From the IMG/VR virus record IMGVR_UViG_3300024273_001578, positions 1-33,880 of that record: a DNA stretch of 33,880 nucleotides. One strand, written 5' to 3'. Positions 1,335 to 22,419 of this stretch are shown here, one piece after another; position 1 is the first letter of the stretch, and every line of letters begins with the position of its first letter. The DNA comes from a virus. The notes below the pieces were generated by a model, which did not search any database, had not been told where the DNA came from, and was given only the letters and a program-made list of their open reading frames with translations. The position numbers were made by a program, and so were the translations under genes.

Positions 1335-1347
1335 TTTATATATCTCC
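1335..1347 (-). promoter_or_regulatory. Phage promoter-like box before the left-edge gene
   Basis: The minus strand reads GGAGATATATAAA, overlapping the stop codon of the last uvsW fragment, with its end 32 bases upstream of the ATG at 1303. It matches the GATATATAA box found before several other genes here. A 7-base inverted repeat (1350-1356 with 1307-1313) flanks it and ends 3 bases before the ATG, but it is short for such AT-rich DNA. Confidence 0.5.
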
Positions 1348-1650
1348 TTCAAAATTGACTTTCTTAATAGTGTAGTCAAATTTCTCTTGTTTGTATATTG
1401 CCTGTCTGGCTTTTCCATGCCTGAATAGATAATTATCCCACTCAACTGTTCTAATATCATCAACAAAATCTACAATTAATACCTTGTCCTTTGATTCATG
1501 TTGTCTTAGTCCACGACCAATTGATTGCCTAATTATTACTTCAGATTTAAATGATTCTGTCAAGAATATGTTGTGAATTTTCTTGATCGAAATACCTGTT
1601 GAAAATGTTCCGTCAATAAGAGGCAACGATAACAACCGCTGCCTCTTCAT
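1336..1650 (-). CDS. uvsW: UvsW-type helicase, C-terminal fragment (motifs V and VI)
   Basis: From GTFSTGISIKKIHN onward this is the end of a T4 UvsW-type superfamily 2 helicase. Motif V (TFSTGIS) and motif VI (IIRQSIGRGLRQHESK, with the arginine finger) are present, and the end (EKFDYTIKKVN) resembles the T4 UvsW end (EKFNYVMKTVN). UvsW unwinds branched DNA and helps move the phage from origin- to recombination-primed replication. The first 15 or so residues of this frame (MKRQRLLSLPLID) are not helicase-like. The proper upstream sequence is in another frame at 1681-1613, so the fragment is frameshifted. Motifs I to IV lie in the fragments at 4505-5488 and 2708-3490. No intein C-half precedes this piece, so how it would join the rest is unclear. 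Confidence 0.8.
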   Translation of the reverse strand: MKRQRLLSLPLIDGTFSTGISIKKIHNIFLTESFKSEVIIRQSIGRGLRQHESKDKVLIVDFVDDIRTVEWDNYLFRHGKARQAIYKQEKFDYTIKKVNFEGDI

Positions 1651-1681
1651 TTGATATATTTTTATGTGATGTTGGTTTCAT
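1612..1681 (-). pseudogene. uvsW: Frameshifted 5' part of the last uvsW fragment
   Basis: From an ATG at 1681 the frame reads MKPTSHKNISNEEAAVVIVASY and then TGA (1615-1613). VIVASY is exactly what should precede G-TFSTGIS in UvsW (T4 has IIVASYGVFSTGIS). Four bases, TGAC at 1615-1612, separate TAT from GGA. Removing them restores VASYGTFSTGIS, and skipping one T gives VASYDGTFSTGIS. Possible causes are an assembly or sequencing error, a true disabling mutation, or a +1 recoding site at UGA-C. I cannot decide from the sequence. Confidence 0.7.
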
Positions 1682-1686
1682 ATTTA

Positions 1687-2643
1687 TTAATTTATTTTAT
1701 TGAAAATCCATCCAATTGTATTTGCTGTTTTTTCATTTATTATTTTTTTATTTGGAGGTAACGATACTGGTTGATTACTGTTTGTATATTTTCTTATAAG
1801 TGAAATATTAAAATTAAATTCATTAACAATTTTATGTAATCCTTCTCTATTTAATCTTTCTCCTGCTGGACTTATAAGTTCATATACATCTCCAGGTTTT
1901 TTCTTTCTATTTTTCATCTTCTCAATAAACTCAGGATCGGACCATTGTTTTTTCATAGACAAACTTGCCTTCTCTCGTTTTATTGGATCTTTATTGACAT
2001 CATTCATTTTAGACTTAAACTCGTTAAATTTTTCAGGTGGCATGTTTTTATATTTTAAAAATGCTCTCCTAGAAGATTCTTCCGGATTTTCTTCTAAATA
2101 TTGTTTCATTTGATTACTCTTCCACTCTTTTAATTCATCTGTCCATATTTCTTTATTTATATTGCATCTTTCTTGATATTGTTCATCTGTGAGTTTATCC
2201 CATCCCTTCTTTGCTCTTCTGCCTTGTTCTTCTGGCGATAATCCTTTCATATATTCTGAATGTGCTTTTTTCCATTGTTCATACACTTCTTTATTATTTT
2301 TAAGACTTTCCCATCCTTTTTTAGATGCAATACTTAATAACTCACCATTCTTTGCCACATCAGATTTCATAAAATTCAAAGTTCTACCATATTTTCTAAA
2401 GTTATATGCTTCAAATAATAATTCATGTGCCTTGATATGATCCTCATATTTTAATTTGACTATATTCCAATCTTCATTTATATGTTCATTATATGTTACT
2501 CTTGGTAAAATATGATGTTTTTCAGTATATGCATCACCATTATATTCATATCCGGTGATAAAATCTAAATACTCTATTAATTTATCAATAGAATCAGGTA
2601 TGCCATCTTTTTGTATAAATAGATTATAAATGAATGCTTTCAT
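1687..2643 (-). CDS. HNH homing endonuclease inserted in the uvsW region
   Basis: An HNH nuclease core is visible at residues 40-75: TEKHHILPR (His43/His44), Asn60 in DWNIVKL, and DHIKAHELL (His69, His73). Residues 90-245 are a string of charged, Trp-containing helical units (KKGWDKL, KEIWTDEL, KKQWSDPEF) of the kind that bind DNA in phage HNH enzymes. Residues 250-310 (VYELISPAGERLNREGLHKI) resemble the NUMOD1/helix-turn-helix tail of these enzymes. It sits between two pieces of the helicase gene and has its own promoter-like box and start-codon hairpin, the usual marks of a mobile gene. It is 318 residues long and looks intact. It ends 5 bases before the ATG of the next helicase piece. Confidence 0.85.
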   Translation of the reverse strand: MKAFIYNLFIQKDGIPDSIDKLIEYLDFITGYEYNGDAYTEKHHILPRVTYNEHINEDWNIVKLKYEDHIKAHELLFEAYNFRKYGRTLNFMKSDVAKNGELLSIASKKGWESLKNNKEVYEQWKKAHSEYMKGLSPEEQGRRAKKGWDKLTDEQYQERCNINKEIWTDELKEWKSNQMKQYLEENPEESSRRAFLKYKNMPPEKFNEFKSKMNDVNKDPIKREKASLSMKKQWSDPEFIEKMKNRKKKPGDVYELISPAGERLNREGLHKIVNEFNFNISLIRKYTNSNQPVSLPPNKKIINEKTANTIGWIFNKIN

Positions 2644-2644
2644 A

Positions 2645-2716
2645 TTACATAAATGTTTTTATTATATATCTATAAAATTTTACGAATATATCAGTAAAGA
2701 AAGAAATTTAATGTAA
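2645..2716 (-). promoter_or_regulatory. Promoter box inside an inverted repeat before the HNH gene
   Basis: The minus-strand box ATAGATATATAAT is at 2673-2661. The flanking arms are TTACATTAAAT (2716-2706) and ATTTATGTAA (2654-2645), pairing over 10 bases with one bulged base. The 3' arm ends one base before the ATG at 2643. The 5' arm overlaps the stop codon of the preceding helicase fragment. Read-through RNA could fold over the start; RNA begun at the box would lack the 5' arm. Confidence 0.55.
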
Positions 2717-2860
2717 ATTTATCCATTCATCACATACATCATCATCACATGTAATGTCCCTTGCCTTCTTTTGAGTTCCATCTGATAAATTTACAAGAGT
2801 ACTCTGAGTAACTTTAATTTCTTTATCACCAAATGTAATTATAGTATATGGATCTGCTGA
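2708..2860 (-). other. Second intein-like N-terminal segment, short, without a visible partner
   Basis: After the helicase residues EEYKKKMEA comes SADPYTIITFGDKEIK and then STLVNLSDGTQKKARDIT and CDDDV. The pattern V-x-L-x-D-G-x4-A-x-D-I-x3-D-D-V is the block A shape of Hint/intein domains, close to the DGTKKKICEVKEGDWV of the first intein. The piece is about 50 residues, stops at CDEWINLH, and has no block B (TxxH). The first residue could be Ser211 or Ala212. The downstream helicase piece has no intein C-half, so this is likely a decayed or atypically split intein. Confidence 0.5.
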
Positions 2861-3490
2861 AGCTTCCATTTTCTTTTTATACTCTTCCCTAATATCAGAT
2901 GCAGTTCCACCATCAACATAGAATACTCTCTTATTGGTTTCCTGTCTGAGTTTCTCATAAAGTCTTTGGCCATGTTCAATTCTATGAAAAAGTACCAGTG
3001 AATTTCTTGGAACTCTACCTATTACACTTGAAATAAAATCAAGTCTTGCAGCATTATTTATTACAAAGTTTTGCTCCAATGCAAAAACATCCTTGTTTTC
3101 ATATCGGTTTTGTGCCAATTCCATTAGGGCTGTTTTTTGTTTGTCAGTCGCATAGTCCATTTCAATTACTTTAACAGCACACTTTGCAATGTGACCCTCA
3201 TCTTGTAAGAAACTTGCCTTAACCTCCGCAATTACAGGCCCAGTTTGACTCATTAATGTTAATTTGTCAAGTGTACCATCTTTTGGAATTGTACCTGAAA
3301 GTCCAAATCTATATTTGGCATTAGTACATTTTTGTAAGATTGTTTTAATACTTGCTGATTTTGCTTTGTGGCAGTTAGACACGTTTAGATCATTTGCAAA
3401 GTAGTTATGATTTAAACCATCTTCTGATTTTATTCTAAGATTATAAACATCACCACTATAATCTATTTTATTAATCTTTTTAATTTTCAT
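2708..3490 (-). CDS. uvsW: Split-intein C-half fused to the middle part of UvsW helicase
   Basis: Residues 1-39 are an intein C-half ending NYFANDLNVSN, followed by Cys40 as the +1 nucleophile. From CHKAKSASIKTIL the helicase resumes directly after the DE of its DExH box: motif III (FGLSGTIPKDG, residues 62-72), motif IV (NSLVLFHRIEHG, 163-174) and VFYVDGGT (189-196). T4 UvsW aligns through the same points (DECH, FGLSGSLRDG, FVMFKHVSHG, YYVSGE). The start overlaps the end of the endonuclease gene upstream by 11 bases. Splicing with the partner at 4505-5488 would restore a continuous helicase through motif IV. From about residue 211 the helicase is lost and a second intein-like start appears (separate entry), then a stop. 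Confidence 0.88.
   Translation of the reverse strand: MKIKKINKIDYSGDVYNLRIKSEDGLNHNYFANDLNVSNCHKAKSASIKTILQKCTNAKYRFGLSGTIPKDGTLDKLTLMSQTGPVIAEVKASFLQDEGHIAKCAVKVIEMDYATDKQKTALMELAQNRYENKDVFALEQNFVINNAARLDFISSVIGRVPRNSLVLFHRIEHGQRLYEKLRQETNKRVFYVDGGTASDIREEYKKKMEASADPYTIITFGDKEIKVTQSTLVNLSDGTQKKARDITCDDDVCDEWINLH
3374..3490 (-). other. Split intein C-half (IntC) in uvsW
   Basis: 39 codons. Blocks F and G are visible: VYNLRIKSEDGLNHNYFAND and LNVSN, with terminal Asn39 and Cys40 as the first C-extein residue. The penultimate residue is Ser rather than the common His. Its length and the early in-frame ATG (MKIKKINK) are typical of naturally split phage inteins. The partner is the N-half at 4798-4505. 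Confidence 0.9.
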
Positions 3491-4445
3491 TGAATTGTGA
3501 TAATAATCTTTTTAATCTGTTTTCTTCAGGTTGTCCATTTAGTAAACTTTCATTATAGTTACATTTAAACCAATCGTCATTTATTTCAATATACTCATAA
3601 TTATTTGAAGAAGCCCATTTGATTGCAGCTTCTCTTTTAATTGTGTTTATTTCATTATTAGATTCTGAATTTGGCTTTATTTCGTATATAACTTTATTTT
3701 CCATATCTATAAAATCAATAATATAATTTCGCCATTCATTTTTATAATTATATGGAACTCTTAATTTTTCATATTTGCAACCTTTATTATATAATTGAAA
3801 ATATGCTTCCCATGATGACCTTAGTTTTATATCTTTTCCTTCTATTGATATAATACATCTACTCCTAGCCCATGAATTTGTTATATTTGGCGTAAAAGTT
3901 CCTTCAGCTATCATCTTTTTTATTCTTTTGCCATTTTCAACACCTATTCTTTTCCTAACATCATCAGATACTTTATGAAAGTTATTTTTATCACCTTCCA
4001 TATTAAATGACCGCCAATTGTGTAAGCAACTATTAGAACAAAATTTATAATATCCATGTGTAAATGAATCAAATTTGGATTCATTTGAACATTCTACATT
4101 TGAGCAAGAGATAGGACCTTTGAGATAATCATATAAATCCTTCCAAGATAATATATTACTGATTTCTATGTTAAAATGATAGTCATTAATCATTTTAGCG
4201 ATTCTTGTAGATTCACTCAAATTAACAATAGTGTTAAATTTAAAAATATTATCCGAAATGAATTTATAAATTTCATCTTTACCTTTTAAAGATTCAGTAT
4301 GCTTAATGATATTATTTCTTTTATCTCTTTTAATTTTATTCTTACTTGGTTCATTTTTTTTCCAATCATAGTGACATGATTGGCTACAAAATCTTTTTTG
4401 CTTAGGTTTTAACGCATTGTTACAATTATTGTTTTTACATTTCAT
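3480..4445 (-). CDS. Free-standing zinc-finger PD-(D/E)XK (Vsr-like) homing endonuclease between the intein halves
   Basis: Two CX4C...CX3C zinc-ribbon-like motifs (Cys3/8/20/24 and Cys114/119/136/140) come first. A C-terminal nuclease-like domain follows: RSSWEAYF (Glu213), YEKLRVPYNY (Glu226), then YIIDFID (Asp244) and YEIKP (Glu255, Lys257), the D...ExK core. This matches the free-standing Vsr/EDxHD-type endonucleases reported between split-intein gene halves in environmental phage sequences (the fractured genes described by Dassa and colleagues, 2009). It presumably spreads the gene break by cutting uninterrupted uvsW; that is inference. It has its own promoter-like box and start-codon hairpin, starts 59 bases after the stop of the upstream half and overlaps the downstream half by 11 bases. 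Assignment to the exact family is from motif shape only. Confidence 0.78.
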   Translation of the reverse strand: MKCKNNNCNNALKPKQKRFCSQSCHYDWKKNEPSKNKIKRDKRNNIIKHTESLKGKDEIYKFISDNIFKFNTIVNLSESTRIAKMINDYHFNIEISNILSWKDLYDYLKGPISCSNVECSNESKFDSFTHGYYKFCSNSCLHNWRSFNMEGDKNNFHKVSDDVRKRIGVENGKRIKKMIAEGTFTPNITNSWARSRCIISIEGKDIKLRSSWEAYFQLYNKGCKYEKLRVPYNYKNEWRNYIIDFIDMENKVIYEIKPNSESNNEINTIKREAAIKWASSNNYEYIEINDDWFKCNYNESLLNGQPEENRLKRLLSQFNEN

Positions 4446-4446
4446 A

Positions 4447-4484
4447 TTTAATAGATGTGGTCTTTATATTATATATCTATTAAA
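4447..4484 (-). promoter_or_regulatory. Promoter box overlapping a perfect 10-base inverted repeat before the Vsr-like endonuclease
   Basis: The arms TTTAATAGAT (minus strand, 4484-4475) and ATCTATTAAA (4456-4447) pair perfectly around an 18-base loop. The 3' arm ends one base before the ATG at 4445. The box ATAGATATATAAT (4480-4468) overlaps the 5' arm and loop, so RNA started a few bases downstream of the box would carry only the 3' arm and leave the start open. Confidence 0.7.
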
Positions 4485-4504
4485 CACACAGAAATTAGTC
4501 AATT

Positions 4505-4798
4505 TTAATTAAAATTTAATATATCATCATTCTCTGTTAATTCGTCAACCCTCTTGTAAATACCATTTGAAAGTTTAACTTTATGATTGCCTGTTATTTT
4601 GATAGTTGAACCGTCTTCCATTTCAATTTCAAACATTTGATTACCTTGTGATAGGTTTTTATAAACGAAATCAACCTGTCTATCTTCAACTTTAAGATTA
4701 TTATCATTAGTTGTTTTGACCCAATCACCTTCTTTAACTTCACATATTTTCTTTTTGGTGCCATCTGTCATTATAATTAGACTATCAGGATGTAGACA
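4505..4798 (-). other. Split intein N-half (IntN) in uvsW
   Basis: 97 codons. Block A begins with Cys1 (CLHPDSLIIMTDGTKKKI) and has GDWV. Block B is ITGNHKVKL with the T-x-N-H arrangement, preceded by FEIEMEDG. The half ends after VDELTENDDILNFN, where a natural split intein would be cut. Its length matches known phage IntN pieces. Insertion in the DExH box fits the habit of inteins to sit in active sites. Confidence 0.92.
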
Positions 4799-5488
4799 CT
4801 CATCAACAACTACTGCGTCAAACTCTTCAAAGTATTCTTTGTCCTTTTTGATTAGCGATTGGTAAGTACCTATCACTATATTTTTATTGGACTTAATTTT
4901 TTGTCCAGCAAAAATCTGTTGAATTCTTAAGTCAATTCTATTTCTAAAGTTATAGTCATGAAAATCCTCGTGTGCTTGTACTACTAATGAAACGTTAGGC
5001 ACTATAAATAATATCTTCTCTGCAGTTCCCTTCTCTAACATGTAAGATATTGTAAGAAAACTGATTAGGGTCTTACCAGCGGATGTTGCAAGCTCTGCAA
5101 GACACTTTCTAAATTTTAATATATTATATGCAGCTTCTACTTGGTAGTCCCTAGGAGTTATCTTAGAACCCTCAAACAATTCATAAGCCCATGCCTCAAA
5201 TGTTTCTGCATTTATATCTGGGTCTATTAATCTTTTAATTCCGTTGATCTTTAATTCAAAACGATAGTCCTTACATATTCCCATCACATATCGCCATAAA
5301 CCTGCTGGAATCCATTTATCATCTTTAATATAAGATACGTAGCCATCCCACACACCTCTTTTGACTAAAGGATTAAATCTCCAAGAGTCAATTCGTTTTG
5401 TTAAAGAAATTCTAATCTGCTCTAACTCAAGCTCAGTTGATTCATCAATTCTTAAAAATTGATTGTCTTCTGTTAATGTTAAAATCAA
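4505..5488 (-). CDS. uvsW: UvsW-type helicase N-terminal fragment fused to split-intein N-half
   Basis: Residues 1-230 match the start of T4 UvsW. The N-terminal domain has WRFNPLVKRGVWDGYV (T4: YRFNPRFRYGNWDGRI). Motif I is ATSAGKT (residues 134-140), motif Ia FIVPNVSLVVQ (161-171) and the DExH box VVVDE (226-230). At residue 231, between Glu and Cys-His of DECH, an intein N-half begins (CLHPDSLIIMTDG) and runs to the stop at residue 327. The start codon is TTG; an in-frame TGA two codons upstream rules out a longer protein, and the alignment with T4 supports this start. It follows uvsY by 17 bases, as part of the primase-uvsY-uvsW block. Activity needs trans-splicing with the fragment at 2708-3490. 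Confidence 0.9.
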   Translation of the reverse strand: MILTLTEDNQFLRIDESTELELEQIRISLTKRIDSWRFNPLVKRGVWDGYVSYIKDDKWIPAGLWRYVMGICKDYRFELKINGIKRLIDPDINAETFEAWAYELFEGSKITPRDYQVEAAYNILKFRKCLAELATSAGKTLISFLTISYMLEKGTAEKILFIVPNVSLVVQAHEDFHDYNFRNRIDLRIQQIFAGQKIKSNKNIVIGTYQSLIKKDKEYFEEFDAVVVDECLHPDSLIIMTDGTKKKICEVKEGDWVKTTNDNNLKVEDRQVDFVYKNLSQGNQMFEIEMEDGSTIKITGNHKVKLSNGIYKRVDELTENDDILNFN

Positions 5489-5944: not shown

Positions 5945-6163
5945 TTAAAACAATGAGTTTCCTTTTTTGTTGTCTTTAATGTACACTGAACTTTTAAACT
6001 TCGCCTTTAATTTAGGCTTAGTAACTATAAATTCCTTGCCCTCGTGGGAAATATTAGCAGATGAAAAATCAATAATCATCTTTAAATTCTTTCTCTTGCT
6101 TCTTTCGTTTTCAAAGTCCTCGAACTGCTCGTCGATCATTTGTAAAAAATCTTTTTTTATCAT
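5945..6163 (-). CDS. Small basic protein of unknown function
   Basis: 72 residues, rich in Lys. It begins MIKKDFLQMIDEQFEDFENE, helical and acidic, followed by a beta-like basic half (GKEFIVTKPKLKAKFKSSVY). The ATG overlaps the primase stop by four bases (ATGA), so the two are probably translated together. I do not recognise a family. Its place between primase and uvsY suggests a replication or recombination accessory role, which is only an inference. Confidence 0.7.
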   Translation of the reverse strand: MIKKDFLQMIDEQFEDFENERSKRKNLKMIIDFSSANISHEGKEFIVTKPKLKAKFKSSVYIKDNKKGNSLF

Positions 6164-7290
6164 AAGTGATATGCATCAAGTTTTGAGTTAGTAAAATAAT
6201 CTGTCAACTTTGATAAGCATTTATTCTTTGTTAGCCATGCAGCTATAACCAAATCATTTAAATCACCTATTTGTTTAGGATATTTATCTCTATTATTTTG
6301 ATCTGTATTTTTTAGATACAATTCCCATTCCCTTTCGATCTTTGTTTCATTAAGAAACTTTTCCCATATAAATATCTTTCTACCTCTTCTAAGTTTCTCC
6401 ATCATCTTCTTTTTACCGGTATCATCATTATCAAACATGTACCTAATGGTGGGAATTTCATCGAACTCTTCTGTAGATCGACCTGCTGTTGCAAGTCCAA
6501 TTGAGTTTGGAATAAACATGGAATCGATAGGACCCTCGAACATAGTAACATCTCTTTCGAAATCTACCATCATTACACCAAATATTGTTGAAACTTTCTT
6601 AACACTTACTAATTCTTCGTCAGATAATATAAGTTCCTTTTCAGCCTCTTCATATATTTTTGCAAGGTCATACGTAAGGTATCTTGAATTTGCCTTTTTA
6701 ACCAATGATCTGGTTTGAAATCCAATAACTTTATCCTTTGGTGCTAGATTAAGAACAACAATTCTTTTGTCTTTTGGAGAATACATAAACATATCTAATT
6801 TTCCTGACAATAATCTATTGCGTAAATAAAAGAATGCTGGATCTCCTGCTTCGATCTCTTTAAAACCAAACCATTCTTTAAGTTCAGTTCGTGTTGGTGC
6901 CAAATCATATGCTAATTTAAATACATCATGTTCCAAAACTTCAACATTGGTAGTTTCCATCTTATGCTCTTGAATATAATCAATGATTTGAATGGAATCA
7001 TCTGTACTTTGAAATTTTACATGATGTTCTTTAAGAAGTTGATATGCATTTGAATGTTCTCCACAATTAAAACAGTGGTATTGCAGAGTGTCCCAATATA
7101 GATTACCACGTTTCTTTTTATGGTCAGTACTTGAGTCACCACAAAATGGACACGCAAAAACTATTCTACCCGGCATTTCTTTAACCATTTGTTTTGTAGA
7201 TTCATTATGTGCTTTAACAATAACTTCCTTTACTAAACTTCTGATTTTATTCTTTAATTCCTCATCTATTTTTATTTTTTCCATTTGCAT
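6160..7290 (-). CDS. 61: gp61-like DNA primase
   Basis: A zinc-binding primase start is clear: ACPFCGDS with Cys47/Cys50, then YHCFNCGEHSN with Cys73/Cys76, as in T4 gp61 (RCPVCGDS...HCYNCNYH). A TOPRIM-like core follows: VTMFEGPIDSMFIP (T4: VYVLEGPIDSLFIE) and RYMFDNDDTGKKKM with the acidic cluster. Length 376 compared with 342 in T4. The enzyme makes RNA primers for the lagging strand with the gp41-type helicase, which is not in this window. The start overlaps the end of the GIY-YIG gene by 19 bases. A second ATG lies two codons downstream, so the start could be 7290 or 7284. It is likely cotranscribed with the 72-residue gene, uvsY and uvsW. Confidence 0.9.
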   Translation of the reverse strand: MQMEKIKIDEELKNKIRSLVKEVIVKAHNESTKQMVKEMPGRIVFACPFCGDSSTDHKKKRGNLYWDTLQYHCFNCGEHSNAYQLLKEHHVKFQSTDDSIQIIDYIQEHKMETTNVEVLEHDVFKLAYDLAPTRTELKEWFGFKEIEAGDPAFFYLRNRLLSGKLDMFMYSPKDKRIVVLNLAPKDKVIGFQTRSLVKKANSRYLTYDLAKIYEEAEKELILSDEELVSVKKVSTIFGVMMVDFERDVTMFEGPIDSMFIPNSIGLATAGRSTEEFDEIPTIRYMFDNDDTGKKKMMEKLRRGRKIFIWEKFLNETKIEREWELYLKNTDQNNRDKYPKQIGDLNDLVIAAWLTKNKCLSKLTDYFTNSKLDAYHL

Positions 7291-7997
7291 TTTTCAAAAT
7301 GATAGCGATTCATATTATGTTTACCTATTTTATTGCAATATGGGCAGATTGTTTCATTATAGATTCTATTTGATGCTGATATTGACATTTTAATTTTAGT
7401 TTCTTCGCTTCTTTTTATTCCTAGTAATGAATCTGATAATTTATTTTTAGTTGAATCTTTTAAATTTTTTCCATAGTTTGGATTGTTTGTTCCTAACTTA
7501 GATTCTTTACATTTTTGTATAGTTTCTTGAGTATGTTTTCTGCCAGTCCATGTTTTTTTAGCAGTATTAGACATTTTTTCAAAAAATATTGGATCTTTCC
7601 ATTTTTGTTTTATCCGTTCCATTATATGATTGCGGTATTCTGGATCTTTCCAATTATTCTTGGCTGAGTTAGACATTTTTATTTTAATTTCCAGAATATT
7701 AGGATTATTTGTTAAACTATCACCCCATTCTCCTCCACTTGTTATATTGTAGCCTATTGTTCTATCAATTGAATTATAATATAAAATCCAGTATTTTTCT
7801 AATTCACATAATATTTCTTTGGTAGGTATATCATCTACAATTATCTCTTTAGTAAATTTTTCTTTACCATATTTGGAAATAGCGTTTCTAATTAGTGTGC
7901 CAGATCCATAATAATCGATAGATTTATCTACTTCCTTTGTAGATAATCCAATATAAATTTTACCATTAATTGAGTTGGTTGTTTTATAAATGTACAT
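7272..7997 (-). CDS. GIY-YIG homing endonuclease between genes 32 and 61
   Basis: The GIY-YIG nuclease domain occupies residues 1-90: YIYKTTN and KIYIGLST (the YIG at 15-17), the catalytic-type Glu in CELEKYWILYYN, and GYNITSGG. The middle has repeated Asn/Lys-rich NUMOD3-type units (NPNYGKNLKDSTKNKLSDSL). The end is a zinc finger, Cys218/Cys221/His233/Cys237. T4 has the GIY-YIG enzyme SegG next to gene 32, where it causes marker exclusion, so the position is comparable. The gene has its own promoter-like box inside a long inverted repeat. It overlaps the primase start by 19 bases, a sign of precise insertion or of later trimming. Confidence 0.88.
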   Translation of the reverse strand: MYIYKTTNSINGKIYIGLSTKEVDKSIDYYGSGTLIRNAISKYGKEKFTKEIIVDDIPTKEILCELEKYWILYYNSIDRTIGYNITSGGEWGDSLTNNPNILEIKIKMSNSAKNNWKDPEYRNHIMERIKQKWKDPIFFEKMSNTAKKTWTGRKHTQETIQKCKESKLGTNNPNYGKNLKDSTKNKLSDSLLGIKRSEETKIKMSISASNRIYNETICPYCNKIGKHNMNRYHFEKCKWKK

Positions 7998-7998
7998 T

Positions 7999-8116
7999 TT
8001 GAATATATTTTATTTAGTTTGGTCATATTATATATCCATGTAATTATTTAAAGGTCCACTATGAAGATTATTTTAGTGACCAAACTAAATAAATATTCAA
8101 TGTAAGTGGACCTTTA
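7999..8116 (-). promoter_or_regulatory. Promoter and interleaved inverted repeats controlling the GIY-YIG start
   Basis: The box GGATATATAAT (minus strand, 8037-8027) lies just upstream of arm A (8025-7999), which ends one base before the ATG. Its partner A' is at 8100-8077. They pair over 16 perfect bases, a 3-base bulge and 8 more. A second repeat, AGTGGACCTTTA (8105-8116) with TAAAGGTCCACT (8049-8060), 12 perfect bases, is interleaved in the order B'-A'-B-A. Read-through RNA could hide the start through A'-A, or free it if B'-B traps A' in its loop. RNA begun at the box has neither A' nor B'. Confidence 0.75.
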
Positions 8117-8120
8117 TATA

Positions 8121-8151
8121 AAGAAAATGGGCCAAGTTTACACCTGACCCA
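8121..8151 (-). terminator. Intrinsic terminator after gene 32
   Basis: On the minus strand the stem TGGGTCA (8151-8145) pairs with TGGCCCA (8134-8128) over 7 bases with one G-U pair and a 10-base loop, followed by TTTTCTT (8127-8121). It starts 24 bases after the gp32 stop codon and is one of the few GC-rich spots in the window. Confidence 0.8.
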
Positions 8152-8174
8152 CTCTATTTAACTATGTGTTAAGA

Positions 8175-9101
8175 TTAAACTCCTAAGTCATTTAAGAAAT
8201 CATCCAAATCATCTGCATCGCTAGAAGCATCCGGGTTTGTGGTCATTTCTGTTGGAAATTCAAAATCTCCTGAACCTGCTGGTACAGCTGCTTGTTCAGT
8301 TTTAGCGGCTGGTTTTTTAGCGGCTGGTCTTGAGACAACTGAGTCCATTGAATCTCCTGGATTTAAGTAGTTTCTTAGGATACTATTTACGAAATCTCTT
8401 GTTTCGGCATCCCATGCTTTGTATTCATATGGTTCCAATGAAGGTGCTGCATCTAATTCAGATTTGATAGTTGCCATTACTTCTTTAGTTCTTTCTGCTG
8501 GAGAACCTGCCATATCAATTGCACTTGTTGAAGATGAGAATTTCGATTTATCGTAGTTGTTGAAGTCACCTTGTCTTGAGATAATCAATTCAAAGTTTTT
8601 ACCTGCAAATAGGTCAAATACTTGAGTTGGTTCACCAAATGCTGGCTTCAATTCTTCGTCAATTTTTTCTTTGATTTTATAACCAAATTTGAAGATTTTG
8701 TATTGTCCTTCTAAATCTGGGTTTTGAGGATCTTTAATAACTTTAACTAGAGCGAAGTACTGCTCACGTCTTTTAAGTTTATCACTCATTTTTCTATCCA
8801 CTGCTGAATCACTTTTACGTAATTTGAAAAATACATCTGCAATTGGACATTTCTCGCCTACTGTTGAAGGAGAATCTACCATTTTACCATCACCACTTGC
8901 ATTTGTAAGCCAGTGTACGTATTTTTTTACTAAAGAGTTTCTTGGATTTGCTGGGTTTGGAACAAAACGAATAATTGCTTTGTATGTTCCGTCTTTACCA
9001 TCATCTGCTGTTGGTTTGTAAAGATCGCTTCCTGATGAAGCTGTTGTTTCATGTGTGTCTACGTCTGCCACACCTAAGTTAAAAATGTCAAAATCTGCCA
9101 T
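8175..9101 (-). CDS. 32: gp32-like single-stranded DNA-binding protein
   Basis: 308 residues compared with 301 in T4. The core shows FVPNPANPRNSLVKKYVHWL (45-64), then a Lys/Arg/aromatic-rich DNA-binding region (RREQYFALVKVIKDPQNPDL, 111-130) and KNFELIISRQGDFNNYDKSKF. The C-terminus is the expected acidic tail (DADDLDDFLNDLG), which in T4 gp32 contacts partner proteins; an Ala/Lys/Pro linker precedes it. The protein coats single strands in replication and recombination and works with primase and UvsY encoded downstream. T4 gp32 binds zinc through one His and three Cys; here only His63 and Cys85 remain in that region, so the zinc site seems lost. The gene has its own promoter-like box and leader, and a terminator follows it. 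Confidence 0.9.
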   Translation of the reverse strand: MADFDIFNLGVADVDTHETTASSGSDLYKPTADDGKDGTYKAIIRFVPNPANPRNSLVKKYVHWLTNASGDGKMVDSPSTVGEKCPIADVFFKLRKSDSAVDRKMSDKLKRREQYFALVKVIKDPQNPDLEGQYKIFKFGYKIKEKIDEELKPAFGEPTQVFDLFAGKNFELIISRQGDFNNYDKSKFSSSTSAIDMAGSPAERTKEVMATIKSELDAAPSLEPYEYKAWDAETRDFVNSILRNYLNPGDSMDSVVSRPAAKKPAAKTEQAAVPAGSGDFEFPTEMTTNPDASSDADDLDDFLNDLGV

Positions 9102-9562: not shown

Positions 9563-10279
9563 TCAAGGTCTCTTTTTACAATTATTAAAATGGCATCTGG
9601 TCATGTTACCTCCACTTCCTTTAAGATTACAATGTGGACATGTTCTTTGGATATACTTAAAACCTGTAAGTGCTTTTGAAATATTATTACAGTGTTCTTT
9701 TGTTTTTTCTTTATTAGTAAGAGACTTTGATAATTTATTTCTAGATTCAATTGACATGATTTGTCCTTTACTGGATTCTGACATTTTTTTCTTAGTACTT
9801 TCAGAATGAGTACTACCCTTTTTAGAGTTAGATAATTTATTTCTAGATGAATCTGGCATAATATATCCTTTCCTTGCCTTAGATATATTATTCTTATGCT
9901 CTTTAGTTAAAGTTTTACATTTACCGATATTGGATAATAGTTTTTTTGTAGATTCGCTACATGGTACTCCTGCTCTATCAAATCCAGTTGAAGTTTGGTT
10001 ATATTTATTATAAAATGATGGATTAATTTTTACATTAAATTTTTTATGTAATTTTATTTCTAATAAAATAGCATCATTTCTATTTTCAAATGTTGAAATT
10101 ATTTTCAATTTATAATTATATGGATTTTGCTTAAAATCATTTTTAAATTCTAAATCAGTTGAACTAGTAAAATATTTAATTCCTAAATCTAATTCAGGTT
10201 TTATAGATGAGCTTCTCATCCCATAATAATGTTTATTCTCTATAAGAGATGTAATCCGGTACACATAATGATATAACAT
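9563..10279 (-). CDS. GIY-YIG homing endonuclease downstream of the resolvase gene
   Basis: The GIY-YIG domain is at residues 1-95: YVYRIT (5-10) and HYYGMRSSS (17-25), a Glu in ILLEIKLHKKF, and an Asn-rich end. Residues 105-205 are four tandem NUMOD3-type units built on SRNKLS or STKK motifs (ESTKKLLSNIGK, SSRNKLSNSKKG, STKKKMSESSKG, SRNKLSKS). The tail is a zinc finger, Cys214/Cys217/His230/Cys234, of the same form as in the GIY-YIG enzyme at 7272-7997, so the two are related. It sits between the resolvase and the gene 32 group without breaking a recognisable gene, so it looks free-standing rather than intron-encoded. Its start lies behind an inverted repeat. Confidence 0.88.
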   Translation of the reverse strand: MLYHYVYRITSLIENKHYYGMRSSSIKPELDLGIKYFTSSTDLEFKNDFKQNPYNYKLKIISTFENRNDAILLEIKLHKKFNVKINPSFYNKYNQTSTGFDRAGVPCSESTKKLLSNIGKCKTLTKEHKNNISKARKGYIMPDSSRNKLSNSKKGSTHSESTKKKMSESSKGQIMSIESRNKLSKSLTNKEKTKEHCNNISKALTGFKYIQRTCPHCNLKGSGGNMTRCHFNNCKKRP

Positions 10280-10282
10280 AAT

Positions 10283-10334
10283 AATTAGTCTATTTTTAAA
10301 AATAATATAAGTAATCTAACAGACTAATTGTTAG
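10283..10334 (-). promoter_or_regulatory. Inverted repeats over the start of the second GIY-YIG gene
   Basis: AATTAGTCT (minus strand, 10329-10321) and AGACTAATT (10291-10283) pair perfectly; the 3' arm ends 3 bases before the ATG at 10279. The loop contains CTTATATTAT, one base away from the TATATAAT core. A second hairpin, CTAACA/TGTTAG at 10334-10316, holds ATTAGTC as its loop, so the two structures compete or form a pseudoknot. Confidence 0.55.
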
Positions 10335-10363
10335 AGTGGTTTCGAACCCATTGTCCTTATATT

Positions 10364-10376
10364 ATTTATATATCTT
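10364..10376 (-). promoter_or_regulatory. Promoter-like box at the 3' end of the resolvase gene
   Basis: The minus strand reads AAGATATATAAAT, overlapping the stop codon of the resolvase gene and 85 bases upstream of the GIY-YIG ATG. It fits the shared box, although part of it codes for the terminal Lys-Asp-Ile. Confidence 0.4.
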
Positions 10377-22377: not shown

Positions 22378-22419
22378 GTTTAGATTATATATCCCATGTA
22401 TATTTGGGCTAATCTAAAC
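22378..22419 (-). promoter_or_regulatory. Promoter box within a strong hairpin before the 1488-residue gene
   Basis: The arms GTTTAGATTA (22419-22410 on the minus strand) and TAATCTAAAC (22387-22378) pair perfectly, with an inner CCCA/TGGG stem (22408-22405 with 22396-22393). The box TGGGATATATAAT (22396-22384) overlaps the 3' side of the hairpin. No U-run follows on the minus strand, so it is not a simple terminator. The 3' arm ends 16 bases before the ATG at 22361. Confidence 0.6.

Follow-up and report, generated by a model that had tools for sequence, protein, structure and literature searches.

The window, by which we mean the whole 33,880-nucleotide stretch of viral DNA analysed (IMG/VR record IMGVR_UViG_3300024273_001578), carries on its minus strand a free-standing homing endonuclease gene, HEG1 (7272-7997), inserted between a gene for a gp32-like single-stranded DNA binding protein (8175-9101; Pfam gp32, 3e-18; phrog_224), its upstream neighbour, and a DNA primase gene (6160-7290; phrog_47), its downstream neighbour. 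The 241-aa product of HEG1 is of the GIY-YIG / NUMOD3 type (phrog_314, E = 8e-40; Pfam NUMOD3, 2e-9), with a match to the GIY-YIG profile (3e-4) that falls just below the cut-off. The primase reading frame overlaps the end of HEG1, and the N-terminus of the primase has been altered by the endonuclease insertion. The gp32-like gene is followed by an intrinsic terminator with a 14-bp stem (8155-8124), which is also present in relatives that lack the insertion. No close relative was found among named phages; the gp32-like protein is nearest to those of an uncultured 462-kb phage and of Prevotella Lak phages, and a Bacteroidota host, based on these nearest relatives, is only a guess.

Between the terminator and HEG1 lie two inverted repeats that cross each other, in the minus-strand order B'-A'-B-promoter-A, immediately 5' of the endonuclease start codon. 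The B' arm (8116-8105), the 5' half of a terminator-like stem, forms 12 perfect pairs with the B arm (8060-8049), and the 44-nt loop between them contains the A' arm (8100-8077). The A arm (8025-7999) lies in the endonuclease leader and pairs with A' through a core of 17 perfect Watson-Crick pairs (8093-8077 with 8025-8009) and, past a 3-nt bulge, an extension of 8 pairs (8100-8093 with 8006-7999). The start codon (7997-7995) begins 1 nt past the extended A arm, A' is complementary to the leader as far as that codon, and a clear Shine-Dalgarno site is absent. A first-pass annotation, made from the letters of the window, had described the same crossing repeats in the same order; both were re-found at the same positions, its figure of 12 contiguous bases for B'-B held, and its figure of 16 for A'-A is corrected to 17. 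Both repeats are real and far exceed chance, as that annotation had judged from their strength: none of 3000 dinucleotide-preserving shuffles of 8123-7985 matched the 17-bp stem, and none produced interleaved stems of 12 bp or more. Fold z-scores are -4.6 for the 139-nt RNA and -6.5 for the 196-nt RNA. Searches of Rfam across the leader region, at gathering and permissive thresholds, returned nothing above threshold.

A putative phage promoter, GATATATAATA (8026-8036, minus strand), was recognized by its motif between B and A, a feature that the first-pass annotation had missed. No -35 box was found where one was looked for, and the motif is in this respect like a T4-type single-box promoter. 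In the window, GATATATAA occurs seven times on the coding strand and never on the other, and a similar coding-strand bias is seen in about 30 phage records, nearly all of those examined. Promoter activity and the start site are read here from the motif: T4-late spacing would place the start of transcription at A8020, the base at the predicted start is A in every relative with the same layout, and RNA begun there would lack B', A' and B. The same motif also stands 5' of replication genes, and late timing is therefore not established.

The leader element arrived together with the endonuclease, as comparison with relatives that lack the insertion shows. Nearly all gp32 relatives with contigs that extend to the primase gene are without the insertion; in these, primase comes straight after the gp32-like gene, across a gap that is short or almost none and that, where short, often contains the terminator and TATATAATA. 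At the gp32 site the insertion is shared only by L001/L002, which derive from the window's own metagenome and represent practically the same phage. When eight members with this layout were compared with insertion-free sites (the genomes compared gave no close match to the site of L126), homology on the left ended 0-10 nt from B' in most, and about 40 nt from it at most. Because left homology stops so near to B', B' is, by this comparison, the edge of the endonuclease cassette, a role of the element that the first-pass annotation had also missed, as it had the identity of the downstream gene as a mobile homing endonuclease. In L191 the target gene is intact downstream of the cassette, its start having been duplicated by the cassette; this, together with the absence of an Rfam match, led us to reject a group I intron, with its P3/P7 interleaving, as the source of the crossed stems. 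In L049 the former primase start resembles B'; this was taken as chance, since AAAGG also begins B' in other members.

Several further observations concern this junction. The terminator after the gp32-like gene (8124-8155; L003-L038 in relatives), which the first-pass annotation had placed just upstream, keeps its structure in most relatives while its stem sequences have changed. In L003-L038, TATATAATA follows the terminator and sits a few nucleotides 5' of the primase ATG, which suggests that the primase mRNA is near-leaderless. In the same metagenome, a sister contig (L002 / L176) stops inside B', at window position 8114, which suggests that the assembly forked between cassette-bearing and cassette-free forms.

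Six other kinds of insertion site show the order B'-A'-B-promoter-A-ATG again, in sequences that differ and yet match one another as arms, before endonucleases of both the GIY-YIG and HNH classes. It precedes GIY-YIG endonucleases close to HEG1 in L132/L082, L126 (= L146), L134 (= L158) and L191, an HNH endonuclease in L164/L172/L173, and a second GIY-YIG type in L167/L170; the three HNH members are copies related to one another, as are L167 and L170, which leaves about seven independent sites. The downstream genes were profile-confirmed as belonging to endonuclease families for those members tested. The promoter motif always lies between B and A, as GATATATAATA or, in one member, GATATATAGTA. 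Among GIY-YIG relatives with other promoters (L083-L113), the interleaved layout is mostly missing. In L082/L132 (about 2982 / 8892) the endonuclease frame is broken about 20 codons in, and the leader is intact.

Compensatory changes are found in both stems among the members, so that the covariance check proposed in the first-pass annotation shows arms conserved as pairs. In L191, the window's B' AAAGGTCCACT and B AGTGGACCTTT are replaced by AAAGGTCCCTT and AAGGGACCTTT, with two pairs changed on both sides and none broken, and column 5 of stem A includes all four Watson-Crick pairs among the members. Arms pair with their own partners in 55 of 55 cells for A, as against 41.8 after re-dealing of the arms, and in 49 of 50 cells for B, as against 38.6; these counts come from few distinct sequences, and the evidence that they give for conserved pairing is strong in kind and modest in number. 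MAFFT misplaced the arms when applied to five elements, so the promoter and the outer end of B served as anchors for the arms when pairs were counted. Members were partly found by a promoter-plus-A pattern, which biases the similarity of A itself and leaves the pairing of A with A' and of B' with B unbiased.

The link to endonucleases emerges from surveys of about 1.6 Mb of related phage DNA. At 181 sites with TATATAA(A/T)A 5' of an open reading frame, interleaved stems (A at least 11, B at least 8) accompanied 8 of about 12 endonucleases and none of about 169 other genes (Fisher 2e-11, for copies that are not all independent); the endonucleases were named from N-terminal sequence, and several were profile-confirmed. 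A motif-free scan of the same DNA returned 25 interleaved pairs, compared with 0-5 in simulated sequence, and all sense-oriented pairs lying just 5' of a start codon precede endonucleases. Because some members had come from the promoter-plus-A pattern, that pattern was also run on cellular genomes, where none of 31 sites was interleaved; in phage, 10 of 23 loci were interleaved, or 11 if a G-U pair is allowed. Simple promoter-spanning hairpins also precede some other phage genes (L160, L206, L235 and window 22361), which makes the nested half of this layout, on the sequences surveyed, more general than the interleaved half.

Other leaders in the window offer a range of related forms, all on the minus strand. 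A less certain interleaved pair (12 + 9 bp; 10283-10367) precedes a second endonuclease gene, HEG2 (9563-10279); a promoter between B and A is absent, the pair was matched by 2 of 3000 shuffles, and its arms and spacing recur in L214 (18290-18190). The HEG2 leader also contains a hairpin resembling a tRNA T-arm; ARAGORN found no tRNA in the window or in L214. A third endonuclease gene (3480-4445) has the ordinary T4-like single-hairpin form of leader, a simple 10-bp hairpin around a GATATATAA promoter (4447-4484) that lies 1 nt before the ATG and shows a compensatory G-C to A-U change in the relative L120. A 10-bp hairpin flanking a GATATATAA promoter (22378-22419) stands before a 1488-aa gene, with similar hairpins upstream of genes, homologous or not, in L235, L206 and L160. 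The endonuclease gene at 3480-4445 is itself part of an unusual arrangement at 1336-5488, where two split inteins seem to interrupt a UvsW-like helicase gene, and the halves of each enclose a free-standing endonuclease gene (3480-4445 and 1687-2643); we take this to resemble the fractured gene organisation known from metagenomes.

How the two stems might act in RNA depends on their geometry. The B'-B stem looks like an intrinsic terminator, because a T-rich tract comes after B in most members; the tract is weaker in the window, where termination at B is doubtful. Across members the B'-B loop is roughly 30 to 46 nt with A' inside it, and the pseudoknot loops are 5-14 nt (L1), 12-18 nt (L2) and 17-34 nt (L3), lengths that leave room for a read-through RNA to hold both stems at once as a pseudoknot. 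An inner hairpin between A' and L2 in the B'-B loop was no better than shuffles in ten members and was dropped. In 10 of 10 members, promoter RNA is predicted to have a more open start region than read-through RNA (0.58 vs 0.31 in the window; 0.86 vs 0.22 in L170), a predicted difference that is missing for the AUG alone in L132, L126 and L134. The conservation and covariation of the arms in related phages support the suggestion of the first-pass annotation that a pseudoknot-capable read-through leader could close the start codon.

Regulation of this general kind is well documented for homing endonucleases. For I-TevI, I-TevII, I-TevIII and segB of T4 and mobE of Aeh1, the start is covered in long transcripts by a hairpin over the Shine-Dalgarno site, and a promoter gives structure-free RNA (PMC2988022, PMC3014915). 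The window element is like these locks in the classes of enzyme concerned and in its T4-like gene neighbourhood: a homing endonuclease lies downstream, the arms flank a putative promoter whose RNA would lack the 5' arm, and the start is covered, since A ends 1 nt before the ATG and openness is predicted to be lower in read-through RNA. It differs in having two conserved interleaved stems rather than a single nested hairpin, in carrying the 5' arm within a terminator-like loop, in its want of a clear Shine-Dalgarno site and in lying at a cassette edge. By this analogy, the best reading is that the element shares the logic of the T4 locks, rebuilt as a pseudoknot. Pseudoknots for translational control in T4 phage have otherwise been described mainly for gene 32 (PMC3014915). 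The gene 32 leader pseudoknot is also a T4-like mRNA structure of the gp32 region; however, it is short, bound by gp32 and located 5' of gene 32, whereas the window element lies 3' of the gp32-like gene, would control another gene and is missing from relatives that have a gp32-like gene. A promoter inside or beside the inhibitory structure is likewise known for T4 late genes whose starts are sequestered, gene e (lysozyme) among them, but their structures are single hairpins and not mobile cassettes. In the literature covered, which was incomplete, no description of an endonuclease together with a pseudoknot was found.

On balance, we think it likely, though well short of assured, that the element is a pseudoknot lock at the 5' regulatory edge of a mobile endonuclease cassette, with an inner promoter that bypasses the block. 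Most transcripts entering from the upstream gene would be stopped by the gp32 terminator and by B'-B, a terminator-like hairpin that would display A' in its large loop. In RNA that reads through, A' would pair with A and form a pseudoknot with B'-B, so that the leader would be covered to the AUG and translation blocked. RNA from the inner promoter would start inside A, lack B', A' and B, and have an open, A-rich leader.

Much the same features could be read as antisense control in trans, whereby upstream-gene RNA ending at B'-B displays A' and represses a separate endonuclease mRNA while the upstream gene is active. The position of A' in a terminator-like loop, its complementarity to nearly the whole predicted 5' leader and the T-rich tract after B in most members are all consistent with such a role, but the gp32 terminator precedes B'-B in the window, and both pairing and covariation include 5 nt 5' of the predicted start (A columns 1-5) that a separate mRNA would lack. 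Because covariation extends into these five bases, pairing in cis within read-through RNA is favoured over pairing between separate RNAs, a preference that hinges on the predicted start; we regard control in trans as unlikely. Should it operate, terminated transcripts of any gene behind which the cassette lands would carry A' and repress the endonuclease mRNA, so that the mobile gene would sense the expression of its new neighbour wherever inserted, a prospect to which we give slightly less credence again.

The first-pass annotation had proposed instead that the B'-B hairpin could free the start codon and A'-A pairing would close it; in a bistable switch of this kind, folding kinetics or a ligand would decide. 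Pseudoknot-free folds are similar in energy, the best nested fold flips from B'-B at 139 nt to A'-A at 186 nt as downstream sequence grows, and B'-B would form first during transcription. The stems are, however, topologically compatible rather than mutually exclusive, the AUG is predicted to be mostly paired even in RNA from B onward without A' (0.29 unpaired), a ligand-like conserved core is absent and the fold of the inner loop is no better than shuffles; a switch is quite improbable, and a role of B'-B in freeing the start finds no support, the stem resembling a terminator rather than an anti-sequestering arm. Equally improbable is control at the level of DNA, through binding of the endonuclease or a phage regulator to A, A' or the promoter surroundings, with RNA pairing secondary. 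I-TevI provides a precedent in its autorepression via an operator over its own promoter (PMC2988022), and the L2 stretch TAAAATA recurs 5' of another promoter, but arm sequences change while pairing persists, and the layout is common to endonucleases of different catalytic families. That the element is only a terminator and a promoter, with A'-A a by-product of inverted duplication as the cassette moved, would fit the simple promoter-spanning inverted repeats before some non-endonuclease genes (L160, L206, L235), but compensatory changes in several lineages and the lack of interleaving at all 31 matched cellular motifs make this very unlikely.

A pseudoknot lock of the kind we favour would be a portable module, in which terminator, antisense loop, promoter and leader are packed into about 120 nt, and which travels among uncultured T4-like phages in company with free-standing homing endonucleases that belong to two catalytic families. 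Such a lock probably lets the endonuclease be made only from its own promoter, and would account for the ability of a selfish gene to insert behind an essential one and yet escape expression by read-through. It would extend the known control of T4 endonucleases to a pseudoknot, and its layout may serve as a searchable signature for mobile endonuclease insertions.
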